A DNA stretch of 64,000 bases from Plantactinospora soyae. GTDB lineage: Bacteria; Actinomycetota; Actinomycetes; Mycobacteriales; Micromonosporaceae. A program made the translations under genes and the position numbers. Of the stretch, positions 51,170-58,978 are shown piece by piece. Within the stretch, counting starts at the first letter, position 1; each line of letters opens with the position of its first letter. The notes below the pieces were generated by a model that had not been told where the DNA came from, made no database searches, and saw only the letters and a program-made list of their open reading frames with translations. Location: positions 5,580,001 through 5,644,000 of the forward strand of contig NZ_JADBEB010000001.1 of NCBI RefSeq assembly GCF_014874095.1, given 5' to 3'.

Positions 51170-51204
51170 GACCGGCCGGGGCGACGACATCGTCCCGGCC
51201 GGTC
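51170..51204. terminator. Terminator between Nramp-like and QsuB-like genes
   Basis: GACCGGCCGGG and CCCGGCCGGTC form an 11-base-pair stem that can extend by four more pairs with one mismatch. It ends just inside the stop of the convergent dehydratase gene at 51203 and probably serves both strands. Confidence 0.7.
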
Positions 51205-53098
51205 AGCTCGTGGAGAGCCGGAGATGGCGGTGCGCGGCCATCCGTACCGGTGCGTTGGCCTCGCCGCATCCGTCGTAGCCACCGATGCGTTGCACGATCT
51301 CGAAGAAGACCCGGCCGCCGTAGACCGGGGTGTACAGGTGGAGCAGTTCGCCACCGTGCTGGTCGCGGTCGTAGAGTATGCCGTACCGGCGCAGCCGCTC
51401 GACGAGATCGGTGGGCAGCGCGAACCGGGCGACGAGATCGGCGTAGTAGTTGTCCGGCACCGGCAGCGTCGTGCCGCCGAGCCGGTCGACGGCCGACGCG
51501 GTACCGAAGATGTCGGCGGTGGCGAAGGCGACGTGCTGCGGGTCGACGACGGCGGGCGCCCACTCGCCCCGGCGGAGCAGCGCCGCGGTGAGCGCGAGCC
51601 GTACGGTCCGGTCCGGCGTGGTGAAGGCCCGCGAGCGCATGAGCCCGAACGGGGCGGCGTACTCCTCCGTGGTCAGCCGGGCGAGCCCGAGCACCGAGCG
51701 GTAGAAGAGTCCCGCCTCGTCGAAGTGGTCGAAGGGTTGCGCCAGCCCGAGATGGTCGGTGACGGTGAGTCCGGCGGCACCGGAGAACTCCTCGCCGGTG
51801 GGCAGGAAGTCGGCCCGCCAGTCGTCGTCGCGGCTGAAGAACACCGACGTGCCGTCCGGGGCGGCGACGGCGGCGAGGTCGGACTCGCGGGCACCACGGA
51901 CGCGGGGCAGCACCGGTGCGAGCAGCGCCTCGGCGCGGACCCGGGACCGGTGCGGGTCCGCGGTGGTGAGCGCGAACGCGCTGACCGCGGCCGTACCCGG
52001 GGTCTGGGGGCGGGTGACGGCGCTGTTCAGGACCACCCGGCAGGCGGCCTGCTCCCACAGCTCCACCGGCTTGGAGCGGTGCTGACCGGTGTGGGCGAAC
52101 CCGAGACCGCGCAACGCGGCCCGTAGCGCCGGACCCGACTCCCCGTCCACCGCGAACTCACTGAAGGCGTGTCCGGACAGCGGCGGCGCCGCCGGCAACC
52201 GGCGTACGCCGGTTGCCGGCACCTCCGAGGGTCGCAGGCTGTCCTCGAGCGTGACCAGCGACCGCATCGCGTCGACGGCGGCCCGCGCCGGATCGGCCTG
52301 CCGGAACACATCGTTGAACACCTCGAGCGACAACGGGCCGGTGTATCCGGTGGCGAGTACCCGGTGGACGAAGTCGGTCAGGTCGAACGAGCCCTGGCCG
52401 GGAAAGAGCCGGTGGTGACGGCTCCACTGTAGAACGTCCATGCTGAGCCGGGGCGCGTCGGCGAGCTGGAGGAAGAAGATCTTGCCCGGGGTGATCTCGG
52501 CGATGCCGGCCGGACCGACCTCCCGGGACAGCACGTGGAAGGAGTCGAGGCAGAGTCCCAGCGCCGGATGGTCGGCCCGCGCGACGATCCGCCAGGAGTG
52601 GTCCCAGGTGGAGACGTGCCGTCCCCACGCCAGCGCCTCGTACGCGATCCGGATGCCCCGGGCGTGCGCCCGGTCGGCCAGCAGGGCGAGCTGTTCGGCG
52701 GCCAGTTCGTCGTCGTCGATCGCGGTCGGGGCGACCGACGAGCAGACCAGCATCGTGTCGACGCCCAGCTCGGCCATCACGTCGAACTTGTGCTCCGCGC
52801 GGGCCAGGTTGGCGGTCAGTGCCGCCGGCGGTACCGCCTCGAAGTCGCGGAACGGCTGGTACAGGTCAATCGTGAGACCGACGTCGGCGCACCGGGCCCG
52901 GACCTCGGCCGGGGTCCAGGGCGTCACCACCAGGTCGTTCTCGAACAGTTCGATGCCGTCGAACCCGGCGCCGGCCGCTGCCGCGATCTTGTCGTCCAGG
53001 GTCCCGGAGACGCAGACGGTCGCCATCGACCGGCGCAGCCCGGTGGACGCAGGGCGGGGAGGACGTCCGGTTCCGACCGAGGCCCGGCTGCTGCTCAT
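51203..53098 (-). CDS. qsuB: 3-dehydroshikimate dehydratase (QsuB-like: TIM-barrel + HPPD-like domains)
   Basis: A 631-residue two-domain enzyme that converts 3-dehydroshikimate to protocatechuate. Residues about 25-300 are a sugar-phosphate isomerase/epimerase-type TIM barrel (MATVCVSGTLDDKIAAAAGA, then GFDGIELFENDLV). YEALAWGRHVSTW, GLCLDSFH and LSLEVFND supply the metal ligands Glu, Asp/His and Glu. Residues about 320-625 are a 4-hydroxyphenylpyruvate-dioxygenase-like VOC domain (GFAHTGQHRSKPVEL, HVAFATADIF, then RVFFEIVQR). This fusion is the QsuB architecture of Corynebacterium. The ATG at 53098 has GGAGGG upstream. It follows the TetR gene by 23 bases and may be in one unit with it. Confidence 0.92.
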   Translation of the reverse strand: MSSSRASVGTGRPPRPASTGLRRSMATVCVSGTLDDKIAAAAGAGFDGIELFENDLVVTPWTPAEVRARCADVGLTIDLYQPFRDFEAVPPAALTANLARAEHKFDVMAELGVDTMLVCSSVAPTAIDDDELAAEQLALLADRAHARGIRIAYEALAWGRHVSTWDHSWRIVARADHPALGLCLDSFHVLSREVGPAGIAEITPGKIFFLQLADAPRLSMDVLQWSRHHRLFPGQGSFDLTDFVHRVLATGYTGPLSLEVFNDVFRQADPARAAVDAMRSLVTLEDSLRPSEVPATGVRRLPAAPPLSGHAFSEFAVDGESGPALRAALRGLGFAHTGQHRSKPVELWEQAACRVVLNSAVTRPQTPGTAAVSAFALTTADPHRSRVRAEALLAPVLPRVRGARESDLAAVAAPDGTSVFFSRDDDWRADFLPTGEEFSGAAGLTVTDHLGLAQPFDHFDEAGLFYRSVLGLARLTTEEYAAPFGLMRSRAFTTPDRTVRLALTAALLRRGEWAPAVVDPQHVAFATADIFGTASAVDRLGGTTLPVPDNYYADLVARFALPTDLVERLRRYGILYDRDQHGGELLHLYTPVYGGRVFFEIVQRIGGYDGCGEANAPVRMAAHRHLRLSTS

Positions 53099-55798: not shown

Positions 55799-56977
55799 TC
55801 ACATGAAGTTGCGGGTGTGCAACGCCGACAGGGCGGCCGCCTCGTCGTCCGGGAAGCCGATGTACTCCAGCCGTCGTCGGCGGCCGGAATCCATCGCCTG
55901 CTGGAGCCGGAGCACGTCCTGCCAGCCCCGGGCGATCGCCGCGGGTTCCCAGGAGCCGGCGGCCAGGACGACCAGCGAGTCGAAGACCTGCTTGTTCAGG
56001 CCGGCCGTGTCGGCCAGCGCCGCGTGGCGTCGCTCGACCGCCGTACGCAGCCGGTGCAGGAAGCCCGGATCCGTCCGGACCACGTGCGCGGTGTGGGCGA
56101 CCCCGAAGGCGACGTGCCGGGCCTCGTCCCGGGCGGCGAGCCGGGTGACGTCGGCGGTGACCTGGTCCGGGGCGTGCCGGTGCAGGAAGTGCAGCAGGTC
56201 CAGGAAGCTGCCCTCACCCAGGACGGAGAGCAGGAACGAGGCGAGGGTGAAGTCCGGTTCCTCGAGGAGGGTCTGCAGGGACGCCCGGCCGCCGGCTCCG
56301 GAGAGCCCGAGCCGGTCGCGGTGCATCAGCCCACGGCGGGTGAAGATCTCCATGTGCCGGGCCTCGTCGGCGGCCTGCGCCGCCAGGAGCTGCATCACCT
56401 CGCGGTAGTGCGGATGCAGCCGGGAGAGCAACCGGGCCGGGATCATCAGCGCGGCCTGCTCGTTCTCCACCAGGAAGGTCATCACCTGGACGACGGCGTC
56501 CTCGACGTCGTCCGGCACGGATCCGGCCGCCGTCCAGTCCACCGCGGTCGCCGGATCCCACTGGTTGGCCGTGGCCTGCGCGTACAGCTGCGGTGCGATG
56601 TCGGCCCAGACCAGATCGCGGTCGACCCAGTCGACGGAGAGCGCCGGACCACCCGGCTCGACCAGCGCGCCCCGGGCGGCCAGCCCCCACTCCCGACTCG
56701 CGTGCGGTACGACGTCGGCGGCCGTCCGCCCGGCCCGCTGCGCTCCCCGCCACCGGTCCCGGTCGGCCCTGCCCCGCACGATGGTCGGCGAGGCCGCCTC
56801 GGGGTCCAACCGGTGCCCCTCCGCCCGGCACCAGGCCGCGAGGTGTACGCCGAGCGCCGGATGACGACCGCGCACCACCAGGCGATCTCCCGGCTCCAGC
56901 CCGGCCAGGGCCCGGTTGACGAGCAGGTGGCCACCGTTGTCGAAACCGAGACCCTCAAGGTCGATAGTCGTCGGCAC
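55799..56977 (-). CDS. TusA-like / di-iron ferritin-like fusion protein
   Basis: A 392-residue protein. Residues 1-60 resemble TusA/SirA (IDLEGLGFDNGGHLLVNRAL, then LAGLEPGDRLVVRGRHPA and AWCRAEGHRL), but the catalytic C-P-x-P cysteine is absent. Residues about 155-340 are a ferritin-like four-helix bundle with a complete di-iron set: Glu171 (VENEQAAL), E205-A-R-H208 (ADEARHME), Glu255 (LGEGSFLD) and E285-A-R-H288 (RDEARHVA). It is thus a probable O2-activating oxygenase or desaturase. The GTG at 56977 lies 23 bases inside the PhnD-like gene. It is the last of three overlapping genes. The substrate is unknown. Confidence 0.75.
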   Translation of the reverse strand: MPTTIDLEGLGFDNGGHLLVNRALAGLEPGDRLVVRGRHPALGVHLAAWCRAEGHRLDPEAASPTIVRGRADRDRWRGAQRAGRTAADVVPHASREWGLAARGALVEPGGPALSVDWVDRDLVWADIAPQLYAQATANQWDPATAVDWTAAGSVPDDVEDAVVQVMTFLVENEQAALMIPARLLSRLHPHYREVMQLLAAQAADEARHMEIFTRRGLMHRDRLGLSGAGGRASLQTLLEEPDFTLASFLLSVLGEGSFLDLLHFLHRHAPDQVTADVTRLAARDEARHVAFGVAHTAHVVRTDPGFLHRLRTAVERRHAALADTAGLNKQVFDSLVVLAAGSWEPAAIARGWQDVLRLQQAMDSGRRRRLEYIGFPDDEAAALSALHTRNFM

Positions 56978-57812
56978 CGAGTGCCCCGTCGGGGTCGTAG
57001 AAACCGGTGTCGCTGACCGCTTGGTCCAGGGCGGCGTACCGGTCCGTCCGGCCCGGCAGCCACTCCTTGAGTCCCTCCAGGTCGAGCAGTGGCCGGGCGG
57101 AGTCGTCGGCGTACGACATGCTCAGCAGCAGCTCGCCGAACTGGTCCACGAGCGCCGGATCGGCCTGCGGCGCGACTGACATGTTGCAGTGGTCGTACGG
57201 CTCCGTCTGGGCGAGCACCCGGACCGAGGCGGACGGCAGGGTCCCGTCCCGGCCGAACAGCAGCAGATTCGCGTCGATCAGGCAGGCCGCGTCGGCACGG
57301 CCGGCGAGCAGCGCGGTCGCGGCGTCACGTTCGCCGCCGATGTGGTCGCCGTGCAGGCCGACGCCCACGTCGAAGCGGAGCAGAGTGCCGTCGGCCTCCG
57401 GATCGACACCGAGGCCGCGCAGCAGCGCCAACGGCAGCAGGGTCGCCTGCGGCGAGTCGACCGCACCGGTCGCGACGGTCCGGCCCCGCAGGTCGCCGGG
57501 GGAGTGCAGGTCGGAGTCCGCCCGTACCACGATCACCGAGGTGAGGTCGCGGTCCGTGTCGCGCATCGCGACGGTGCGCAGGGGAAGGCCGCGGGCCCGG
57601 GCCAGCCGCTCGGCGCGGATCCAGGCCAGCGGTGAGTTCCAGGCCAGGTCGATCCGGCCGGCGAGCAGGTCCTCGACCTGCCGTTCGTAGTGCGAGTAGA
57701 GCACGTAGTCCAGGTCCAGGCCACGCGCCCGGAACCAGGCCCGGAAGCCGTCCCAGATGGTCACGACCTTCGGGTCGTAGGCGACGGCGCCGAGCAGCAG
57801 CGGGCGGCTCAC
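56955..57812 (-). CDS. Signal-less PhnD-like substrate-binding-fold protein
   Basis: A 285-residue protein with the PhnD/transferrin-like (phosphate/phosphite/phosphonate-binding) fold: LLLGAVAYDPKVVTIWDGFR, then YERQVEDLLAGRIDLAWNSP, VIVVRADSDLHSPGDLRGRT and AALLAGRADAACLIDA-type patterns. There is no signal peptide or lipobox, and no permease or ATPase is adjacent. It should therefore be cytoplasmic, as in the Thi5 class or as a ligand carrier. The GTG at 57812 overlaps the stop of the flavoenzyme gene (GTGA), and its own stop lies within the di-iron gene. The strict overlap with two oxidoreductase genes suggests a substrate chaperone or an enzyme that reuses this fold. Confidence 0.75.
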   Translation of the reverse strand: MSRPLLLGAVAYDPKVVTIWDGFRAWFRARGLDLDYVLYSHYERQVEDLLAGRIDLAWNSPLAWIRAERLARARGLPLRTVAMRDTDRDLTSVIVVRADSDLHSPGDLRGRTVATGAVDSPQATLLPLALLRGLGVDPEADGTLLRFDVGVGLHGDHIGGERDAATALLAGRADAACLIDANLLLFGRDGTLPSASVRVLAQTEPYDHCNMSVAPQADPALVDQFGELLLSMSYADDSARPLLDLEGLKEWLPGRTDRYAALDQAVSDTGFYDPDGALGADDYRP

Positions 57813-58978
57813 TGGGCCGGCCCGTCCAGCAGCGGCAGGCCGGTCAGGGCCCGGCCCACGAAGTCCAGCAACGCTGGCGTCGTCGGCGCCATCACCCGGG
57901 CCGCCCGGGAGTCCCGGAACCGGCGTTCGATCCCCAGCTCCTTGCGGAACGCGGCGCCGCCACACACCGTCATCGCCAGGTCGGCGACCTCGGCGGCGCT
58001 GCCGTCCGCCGCCGCCTTGACCTCCAGCACCAGCAGTTGCGCCTCGTCGTCTCCCTGCTCGAGGGCGGTCAGCGTGCTGTCGAGGAGCGCCCGGGTGCGG
58101 TCCGTCTCGATCCGCATCCGCGCCAGCACCGCCCGGGACTCGGGCTGCTGTGCCAACGACCGGTCCAGGTGCCCGAGGCGGGTCCGGGTCAGGTGTCCCG
58201 TCGCCTCGCGGGTCACCGCCTGCATGAGGCCGACGCTCGCGGCGGCGTTGAGCAGGAGGAACCACGGCAGTACGGCGGTGAGCGCCAGATCCAGGCCGGT
58301 GCCGTCCGCACCGAGCAGCGCCGTCCGGGACACCCGTACGTCGCTGCCGGTGACCGGTCGGGAGTCGTTGCCGCGCAGTCCCAACCCGTCGAACTCGGGA
58401 CCGACCGACAGCCCTTCTGTGCCGGTGCGGACCAGCCAGAGCGACATCGGCCCCGCCGCGGCCAGCGGCCGGCTCGACCAGACGTAGCTGTCGGCGTGAC
58501 CGGCCGAGGTGACCCAGCTCTTCCGGGCGTCCAGCCGCACCTCGTCGCCGTCGTCCGTCGCGGTGCTCACCGGCGCCCAGAAGTGGCTGCGTGAGCCCGT
58601 CTCGGAGAAGGCGAGGGTGCTCAGGTGGCGCCCGGCGGCGACCTCCCGCAACTCGTCGGCGCGGCCGGTCGCGGCCAGCGCGGCAACCGCGCTGTAGTGC
58701 ATCATCGTCACCATCGCGGTCGAGCCGCAGGCCGCCGAGAGCTGCCGTACCACGTCGGTGGCGGCCCGGAGCCCCTCGCCACCCCCGCCGTACTCAGTGG
58801 GCACGGTAAGGGCGAGCAGGCCCGTCTCGGCCAGCGCGGCGACGGCCTCGCGGGGGAACGAGCCGGACCGATCGACGGATTCCGCCCCGGGTACGACGAT
58901 CTCCTTGACGATCCGGTCCAAGGAATCCTGGTACTTCAAAGCGCCCTCCCCGGGCTCGGCCAACTCCAGCACCGCCAT
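57809..58978 (-). CDS. Acyl-CoA-dehydrogenase-like flavoenzyme (DszC/SfnB-like)
   Basis: A 389-residue FAD/FMN enzyme of the acyl-CoA dehydrogenase fold: LALTVPTEYGGGGEGLRAAT, LAFSETGSRSHFWAPVSTAT, ARKSWVTSAGHADSYVWSS and DFVGRALTGLPLLD. The catalytic glutamate position near the C-terminus is not the canonical one of fatty-acid dehydrogenases. The TEGLSVGPEFDGLGLRGNDS segment resembles the monooxygenase-type relatives (DszC, SfnB, DnmZ). It is the first gene of the three-gene overlapping operon. I chose ATG 58978. A TTG at 59005 would add nine residues. The substrate is unknown, and a sulfur- or nitrogen-containing compound is a guess from the relatives. Confidence 0.8.
   Translation of the reverse strand: MAVLELAEPGEGALKYQDSLDRIVKEIVVPGAESVDRSGSFPREAVAALAETGLLALTVPTEYGGGGEGLRAATDVVRQLSAACGSTAMVTMMHYSAVAALAATGRADELREVAAGRHLSTLAFSETGSRSHFWAPVSTATDDGDEVRLDARKSWVTSAGHADSYVWSSRPLAAAGPMSLWLVRTGTEGLSVGPEFDGLGLRGNDSRPVTGSDVRVSRTALLGADGTGLDLALTAVLPWFLLLNAAASVGLMQAVTREATGHLTRTRLGHLDRSLAQQPESRAVLARMRIETDRTRALLDSTLTALEQGDDEAQLLVLEVKAAADGSAAEVADLAMTVCGGAAFRKELGIERRFRDSRAARVMAPTTPALLDFVGRALTGLPLLDGPAQ

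Follow-up and report, generated by a model that had tools for sequence, protein, structure and literature searches.

What task do three overlapping genes of the soil actinomycete Plantactinospora soyae share? The genes lie on the minus strand of a 64,000-nucleotide stretch of its genome (contig NZ_JADBEB010000001.1, positions 5,580,001 to 5,644,000; hereafter the window, whose own numbering is used throughout). They encode an acyl-CoA-dehydrogenase-fold flavoenzyme (ACAD; Rv1679/FadE16-like by Pfam and NCBIfam models, 389 residues, 57809-58978), a cytoplasmic PhnD-fold protein resembling substrate-binding proteins (SBP; Rv1680-like, 285 residues, GTG start, 56955-57812), and a 392-residue protein that joins a TusA-like head to a ferritin-like di-iron domain (55799-56977). 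As the initial annotation of this DNA had described, the flavoenzyme stop overlaps the SBP start (four shared bases, 57809-57812) and the SBP gene ends inside the di-iron gene (23 shared bases, 56955-56977). The trio is a real, conserved variant of the Rv1679-Rv1681 gene set, undescribed in the literature searched. We tentatively read it as a self-contained, widely spread module for processing chalcogen compounds, with selenium as the most likely element.

Recurrence of the trio and exchange of its third gene

The initial annotation had set beforehand two tests of its proposal, conservation of the di-iron ligands and recurrence of the trio elsewhere, and the three genes were indeed found together at loci of other genomes. 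The window's genome holds a single match to the di-iron protein, and the homologue in Plantactinospora alkalitolerans (also Micromonosporaceae) is 96% identical to it. In a scan of genome contigs, SBP and di-iron homologues stood in the same order at 21/21 loci, 20 of which also had an ACAD gene; one contig starts inside the SBP gene (L043) and another ends inside the di-iron gene (L051). Di-iron matches above 100 bits occurred in 17 of 201 relatives (own genome included), with weak partial matches in 18 further genomes, and the Rv1680 model reached at least 200 bits in 31 of the 397 genomes of the order, four being above its cut-off. The trio was found in Actinomycetota, Acidobacteriota, Myxococcota and Planctomycetota. 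Strong SBP matches (at least 290 bits, alignment A3) were present in 8 of 247 Acidobacteriota, 15 of 198 Planctomycetota and 8 of 193 Myxococcota genomes, each count including an already known centre genome; weaker ones (about 92-120 bits) came from 1 Acidobacteriota, 2 Planctomycetota and 20 Myxococcota genomes, and those inspected were of transporter type. No flanking gene was conserved across the loci compared; shared synteny amid changing flanks thus marks the trio as a unit. At one planctomycete locus an extra gene, by eye of the formylglycine-generating-enzyme type, lies between the SBP and di-iron genes (L200:6632-7660).

The partner of the SBP varies. Among 84 distinct SBPs (loci below 150 bits, SBPs shorter than 200 residues and identical SBPs were dropped, and a recount found no pair at least 98% identical), it was a di-iron protein in 70, a radical S-adenosylmethionine (radical-SAM) protein in six and a MetE-like protein in six; two had none, one of them (L051) being cut by the contig end. 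No locus carried two kinds of arm near its SBP. Radical-SAM third proteins were encoded at four order-level loci (L082-L085), at L132 and in Myxococcota (L213); those of L082, L083 and L132 exceed the Rv1681 family cut-off, and those of L084 and L085 are 56% identical to that of L082. A core-MetE-like third gene, with an OsmC-like gene nearby, was found at L197 (Acidobacteriota) and L202-L204 (Planctomycetota), in the order ACAD-SBP-MetE at L197 and SBP-MetE-ACAD at L202; the OsmC label comes from a below-cut-off match in L202, and the L197 gene had no match. By eye, the MetE-like arm aligns with what we take to be the zinc ligands of MetE and with its homocysteine residues. The latter are Ser433, Glu484 and Asp599 (PMC7857596; papers cited by PMC number are represented here by excerpts of their text). 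The MesD/MesX system for oxygen-dependent methionine synthesis, in which a core-MetE works with O2-linked redox partners, resembles this MetE-type variant (PMC7857596), but MesX (DUF1852) is outside the trio and the MetE-like arm stays below the cut-offs of the NCBIfam methionine-synthase models.

Quick-mode trees place at least two partner changes on the SBP tree and at least three on that of the ACAD, which is smaller (45 rows). A single clade of di-iron SBPs was rejected (approximately unbiased test, p 8e-53), and L205-L207 and L212 have di-iron partners despite SBPs that are nearer the radical-SAM type. As judged from sequence, ACAD and SBP form a constant chassis and the third arm is exchangeable. 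At L198 (G1024), an ACAD and an SBP of the radical-SAM-like clade have no third partner adjoining.

The closest known system is the Rv1678-Rv1681 set (NF049986, NF049984, NF049985 and NF049973), which has homologues of ACAD and SBP, ordered alike, and a third protein with a homologous TusA-like head. It differs in that its third domain is radical SAM whereas that of the window is di-iron, in that a DoxD-like membrane protein precedes it, and in that the window proteins stay below the NCBIfam cut-offs: ACAD reaches 407 bits against NF049984 (cut-off 600) and the SBP 227 bits against NF049985 (cut-off 400), neither being a member by these scores. NF049973, the radical-SAM third protein, had no match in the window's genome at E 1e-20. 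The excerpts of the literature searched report no experimental function for Rv1679-Rv1681.

Features of the three proteins

The TusA-like head (residues 1-70, 56768-56977) scores 21.0 bits against TusA PF01206, below the cut-off of 28.6, and its predicted model (residues 3-67) runs strand-helix-strand-helix-strand. Its description as cysteine-less in the initial annotation applies to the CPxP catalytic cysteine of TusA, which is absent (alignment A1), but not to the head as a whole, where Cys50 (AWCRAEGH) is present and kept in 66 of 70 homologues. Profile-profile comparison (hhalign) matched the di-iron heads to the radical-SAM heads with a probability of 95.8% (P 7e-9), compared with P > 0.06 for all 25 control windows taken from the SBP and from the bodies of the di-iron and radical-SAM proteins; an earlier comparison with fewer rows had given 77-89%. 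Residues 6-91 of the window protein also matched a stretch of G120 (33% identity, E 2.8e-5) that opens a radical-SAM gene (L027, L241). Sub-cut-off Pfam TusA matches occurred in both head groups (P0003, L205 and L206; L213), and the L082 radical-SAM protein had no such match at E 0.5. On this profile evidence, the heads of the di-iron and radical-SAM proteins are homologous.

The di-iron four-helix domain follows (residues 125-392, 55799-56605). The six ligand residues noted in the initial annotation are present and, together with a further Glu on helix 1, were kept in 70/70 di-iron rows (E171 or E173, E205, H208, E255, E285 and H288); the rows are 69 distinct at 99.5% identity, include the window's own protein and hold the same gene twice, and matches with fewer than 300 aligned positions were dropped. 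With this ferritin-like set of four Glu and two His, oxygenase activity is predicted. The domain scores 14.4 bits against AurF PF11583, below the cut-off of 29.6, and its R2-like matches are sub-threshold too. Comparison of the predicted model with solved structures by VIA-align, which shows fold likeness only, gave the azoxy synthase VlmB and the aldehyde deformylating oxygenases as nearest; they share the four-helix di-iron fold, but identity is about 20%, the TusA-like head is left uncovered and their partners are others. The C-terminal HTRNFM (55799-55819) is nearly invariant across phyla, which suggests a functional tail.

The SBP carries a PF12974 domain (120.7 bits, cut-off 27). That it lacks a signal peptide, as first proposed, was borne out by eye from its N-terminus (VSRPLLLGAVAYD), and likewise by eye neither a permease nor an ATPase was present among the genes called on either side of the trio. 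Pocket positions were read against the published ligand residues of PhnD1 and PtxB (PMC10284923, PMC5700983). His154-Gly155-Asp156 (codons at 57345-57353, minus strand), an insertion relative to transporter-type SBPs, and His208-Cys209 (57186-57191, minus strand), which align with Asp203 and the capping Tyr204 of PhnD1, were kept in 84/84 trio SBPs, whereas all 16 transporter-type rows (15 distinct, the same gene being present twice) show a gap, Asp and Tyr there. Tyr42, Ser120, Arg84 and Asp87 are common to both groups, the first two, which belong to the PhnD-type pocket, being kept in 83/84 each. Thr125 was kept in only 6/84, and Ser126, the ligand His, Asp203 and the capping Tyr are all replaced, so that the trio SBPs lack the full STS-His-Asp-Tyr set for phosphonate or phosphite. 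Read in this way, the alignment shows a pocket rebuilt around Asp119, His154-Gly-Asp156, His208 and Cys209, and binding of phosphonate is therefore unlikely. Compared with PhnD1, PtxB and the SBP of the TIGR04553 putative selenate importer, the fold is shared, but the trio SBP has no visible export signal, no ABC partners and Asp119, HGD and HC in place of most of the STS/His/Asp/Tyr pocket; against the TIGR04553 model it scores 58 bits (cut-off 250), too low for membership. In two genomes one long frame encodes two tandem SBP-like matches, a double-SBP protein (L208 in G1216:C30; G1246:C50:265983-267584).

The three-domain ACAD fold was confirmed by PF02771, PF02770 and PF00441, all above cut-off. 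His94 is invariant, and the position of the usual catalytic Glu (YEG motif) is Ala364 in the window protein and Ala in 59 and Gly in one of 60 rows (those shorter than 340 residues dropped). Of the three reference alignments shown, two have YEG and the top-scoring one, 7p98, reads YTG; for the alternative Glu position used by isovaleryl-CoA dehydrogenases, the judgement was made by eye alone. The protein also scores against the SfnB, DszC and 3-sulfinopropanoyl-CoA desulfinase models, below their cut-offs.

Selenium and the competing explanations

At some loci the genes around the trio hint at selenium. Among 113 flanking proteins from 31 loci (long and cut proteins were left out), SelA and the SelB winged helix gave three matches each. 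These belong to trios in Streptomyces tibetensis (L036), Streptomyces hyderabadensis (L039) and Amycolatopsis acidicola (L050), at each of which a tRNA-Sec gene completes the selenocysteine (Sec) locus. The order on one strand is selD-ACAD-SBP-di-iron-selA-selB at L039 and L050, and at L036 it is selD-selA-selB-ACAD-SBP-di-iron. At L039 the called genes leave gaps of 36 and 50 bases around the trio, and at L050 the di-iron gene and selA lie about 0.8 kb apart. A crude estimate of the chance of two or more such cases in 20 loci is 5e-4 (four neighbour slots, three target genes, 7500 genes).

To this we can add the co-occurrence of selD, examined in 80 genomes hand-chosen among those already met (40 with the trio, 40 lacking a strong match to it). 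The gene was present in 31/31 genomes of the di-iron type, 4/4 of the MetE type, 2/5 of the radical-SAM type and 28/40 trio-free ones; for di-iron and MetE types together (35/35) against trio-free genomes, Fisher's p was 2.5e-4. The window's genome has selD (390 bits, cut-off 125). A TIGR04553 importer follows one di-iron trio by about 150 bases (L091; importer SBP 361 bits, cut-off 250), and at L241 such an importer (SBP 307 bits) is operonic with a radical-SAM relative (326 bits against the Rv1681 family, cut-off 380), followed by a DoxD-like gene. No selenocysteine codons were found in the trio: in-frame stops coincided with natural gene ends or lay close to them, and in one ACAD match they preceded the start. 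Searches near the cassettes of 19 loci gave only tRNA matches at Rfam gathering scores and no riboswitch, and the window had no match of any kind. The trio is not among the candidates (YedE, YedF, a LysR-type regulator and DUF3343) in the excerpts of a 2015 comparative-genomics study of selenium (PMC5322559), and the open-access literature searched held nothing relevant on the trio with PhnD or selenium.

Our best reading of the module is oxygen-dependent, and we infer its chemistry as follows. The SBP would be a cytosolic holder that has lost its role as a transport receptor, and may capture at Cys209/His208 a small selenium (or sulfur) species related to the cargo of the 'putative selenate' ABC importer. 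A metalloid oxyanion on Cys has a precedent among the periplasmic AioX/ArrX arsenic-oxyanion sensors, which have a PhnD-like fold: the pocket Cys106 of AioX links arsenite (PMC5908839). The flavoenzyme would carry out a redox step other than acyl-CoA desaturation, and the di-iron arm would dock through its head and perform an O2-dependent cleavage, such as the oxidative demethylation of methylated selenium, the product feeding SelD. The MetE-like arm may take an equivalent step in which the methyl group moves to homocysteine, and the radical-SAM arm the same step without O2, or on sulfur. Given a Cys/His holder, a flavoenzyme without the usual base and three types of arm, the simplest task common to all would be to strip a small chalcogen compound of a group, plausibly methyl, or to pass that group on. 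The initial annotation had proposed oxidation of a small anion held by the PhnD fold and handed between flavoenzyme and di-iron oxygenase; its cytosolic holder and two enzymes are retained here in this conditional form, and its phosphonate option is not, given the pocket. A fuller proposal, which we consider on balance unlikely, is a previously undescribed aerobic selenium-supply system, in which a PhnD-fold transport receptor, relocated to the cytosol and remodelled as a Cys/His selenium holder, would act with a flavoenzyme and an interchangeable arm (di-iron, radical SAM or MetE-like) to supply SelD with selenium freed from methylated or oxidised compounds.

Several observations weigh against a selenium module. 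The selD gene is common anyway, as the trio-free genomes attest, and the co-occurrence statistics ignore phylogeny; within the window's own family the comparison is 9/9 against 9/14 (p 0.12). Its presence in only two of five radical-SAM-type genomes means that the radical-SAM arm cannot depend on SelD, and the original substrate may have been sulfur, or the choice of substrate may lie with the arm. In the window's genome selD, selA and selB lie near 7.01 Mb and the trio near 5.64 Mb, about 1.4 Mb apart, and most trios examined likewise sit at a distance from sel genes or on a different contig. The gap between selD and the SBP/di-iron pair is about 16 kb in G234; selD is about 31 kb away in G1216 and G1246, and the remaining positive genomes tested have it at a greater distance or on a separate contig. 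Among the trio loci examined, L091 alone has the TIGR04553 importer in its flanks, and the 'selenate' in the importer's name is itself a prediction. The ACAD gene is not within 2.5 kb of the SBP in G124, G234 and G472, nor in the 0.6 kb examined upstream of the SBP in G151. A role of the MetE-like arm as sole methionine synthase is unsupported, since MetH matches were found in 6/6 MetE-type genomes (the one in G1233 falls short of the family cut-off). Cys209 and AioX Cys106 occupy different positions, and a structure-based annotation calls Rv1680, from fold likeness, a putative phosphonate transporter component (PMC8562490).

The alternative that survives best, though on balance unlikely, is an organosulfur module that acts on a small sulfur acid or thiol by oxidation or demethylation, the selenium neighbours reflecting mimicry of sulfur or chance. 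The TusA-like head, the OsmC-like neighbour and the MetE-like arm are all sulfur-type folds, the ACAD scores listed above concern sulfur enzymes, a protein encoded at L091 is nearest DszC/SfnB (below cut-offs), and selD can be missing from radical-SAM-type genomes; what this does not accommodate is selD in every di-iron and MetE-type genome tested and three trios within Sec loci. It is slightly less likely still that the di-iron and radical-SAM arms are O2-dependent and O2-independent substitutes for one reaction on whatever substrate, as AcsF and BchE form an isofunctional oxygen-dependent/oxygen-independent pair. The same chassis, the homologous head at the same end and the single kind of arm per locus would fit, but the MetE-like third arm is not an oxidase, and the differing selD co-occurrence suggests differing substrates. 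Small-molecule biosynthesis (an N-N, azoxy or hydrocarbon product) is improbable: fold similarity to VlmB and the aldehyde deformylating oxygenases is its one line of evidence, and a compact three-gene unit with unconserved flanks and no recurring carrier, ligase or transport genes speaks against it. Oxidation of phosphonate or phosphite is very improbable, for although phosphite, phosphate or methylphosphonate is the ligand of the nearest solved SBPs, two pocket residues persist and Rv1680 bears the annotation just cited, the remaining ligand residues are replaced and the 25 commonest families (of 148) among the 113 flanking proteins include no phosphonate genes.

If the trio is a selenium module, it bears on a gap in the field. 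According to the excerpts of a 2026 review (PMC13188914), the selenium form and donor used by SelD in vivo are incompletely elucidated, and a transport system of high affinity that is specific for selenium has yet to be identified in any prokaryote. The trios inside Sec loci offer a concrete candidate that is testable by genetics. With its rebuilt pocket, the SBP would clearly exemplify how a transport receptor can become a cytosolic carrier or enzyme, and the module gives a frame for the Rv1679-Rv1681 gene set.

Headless relatives and a further window gene

Headless Rv1681-like radical-SAM proteins (in L133-L143) lack the TusA-like head, stand among other neighbours and were set aside. At L134-L137 (for example L137:1883-3709) the radical-SAM part is fused behind a domain that by eye resembles a metallophosphatase, and in some of these loci glycosyltransferase-like genes then follow. 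At L138-L142 it lies in a row with an AhpD/peroxidase-like gene (by eye) and a DoxD/DoxX-like membrane gene. Elsewhere in the window, 51203-53026 encodes a 607-residue protein that by eye combines a sugar-isomerase-type barrel with a dioxygenase-like C-terminal half.

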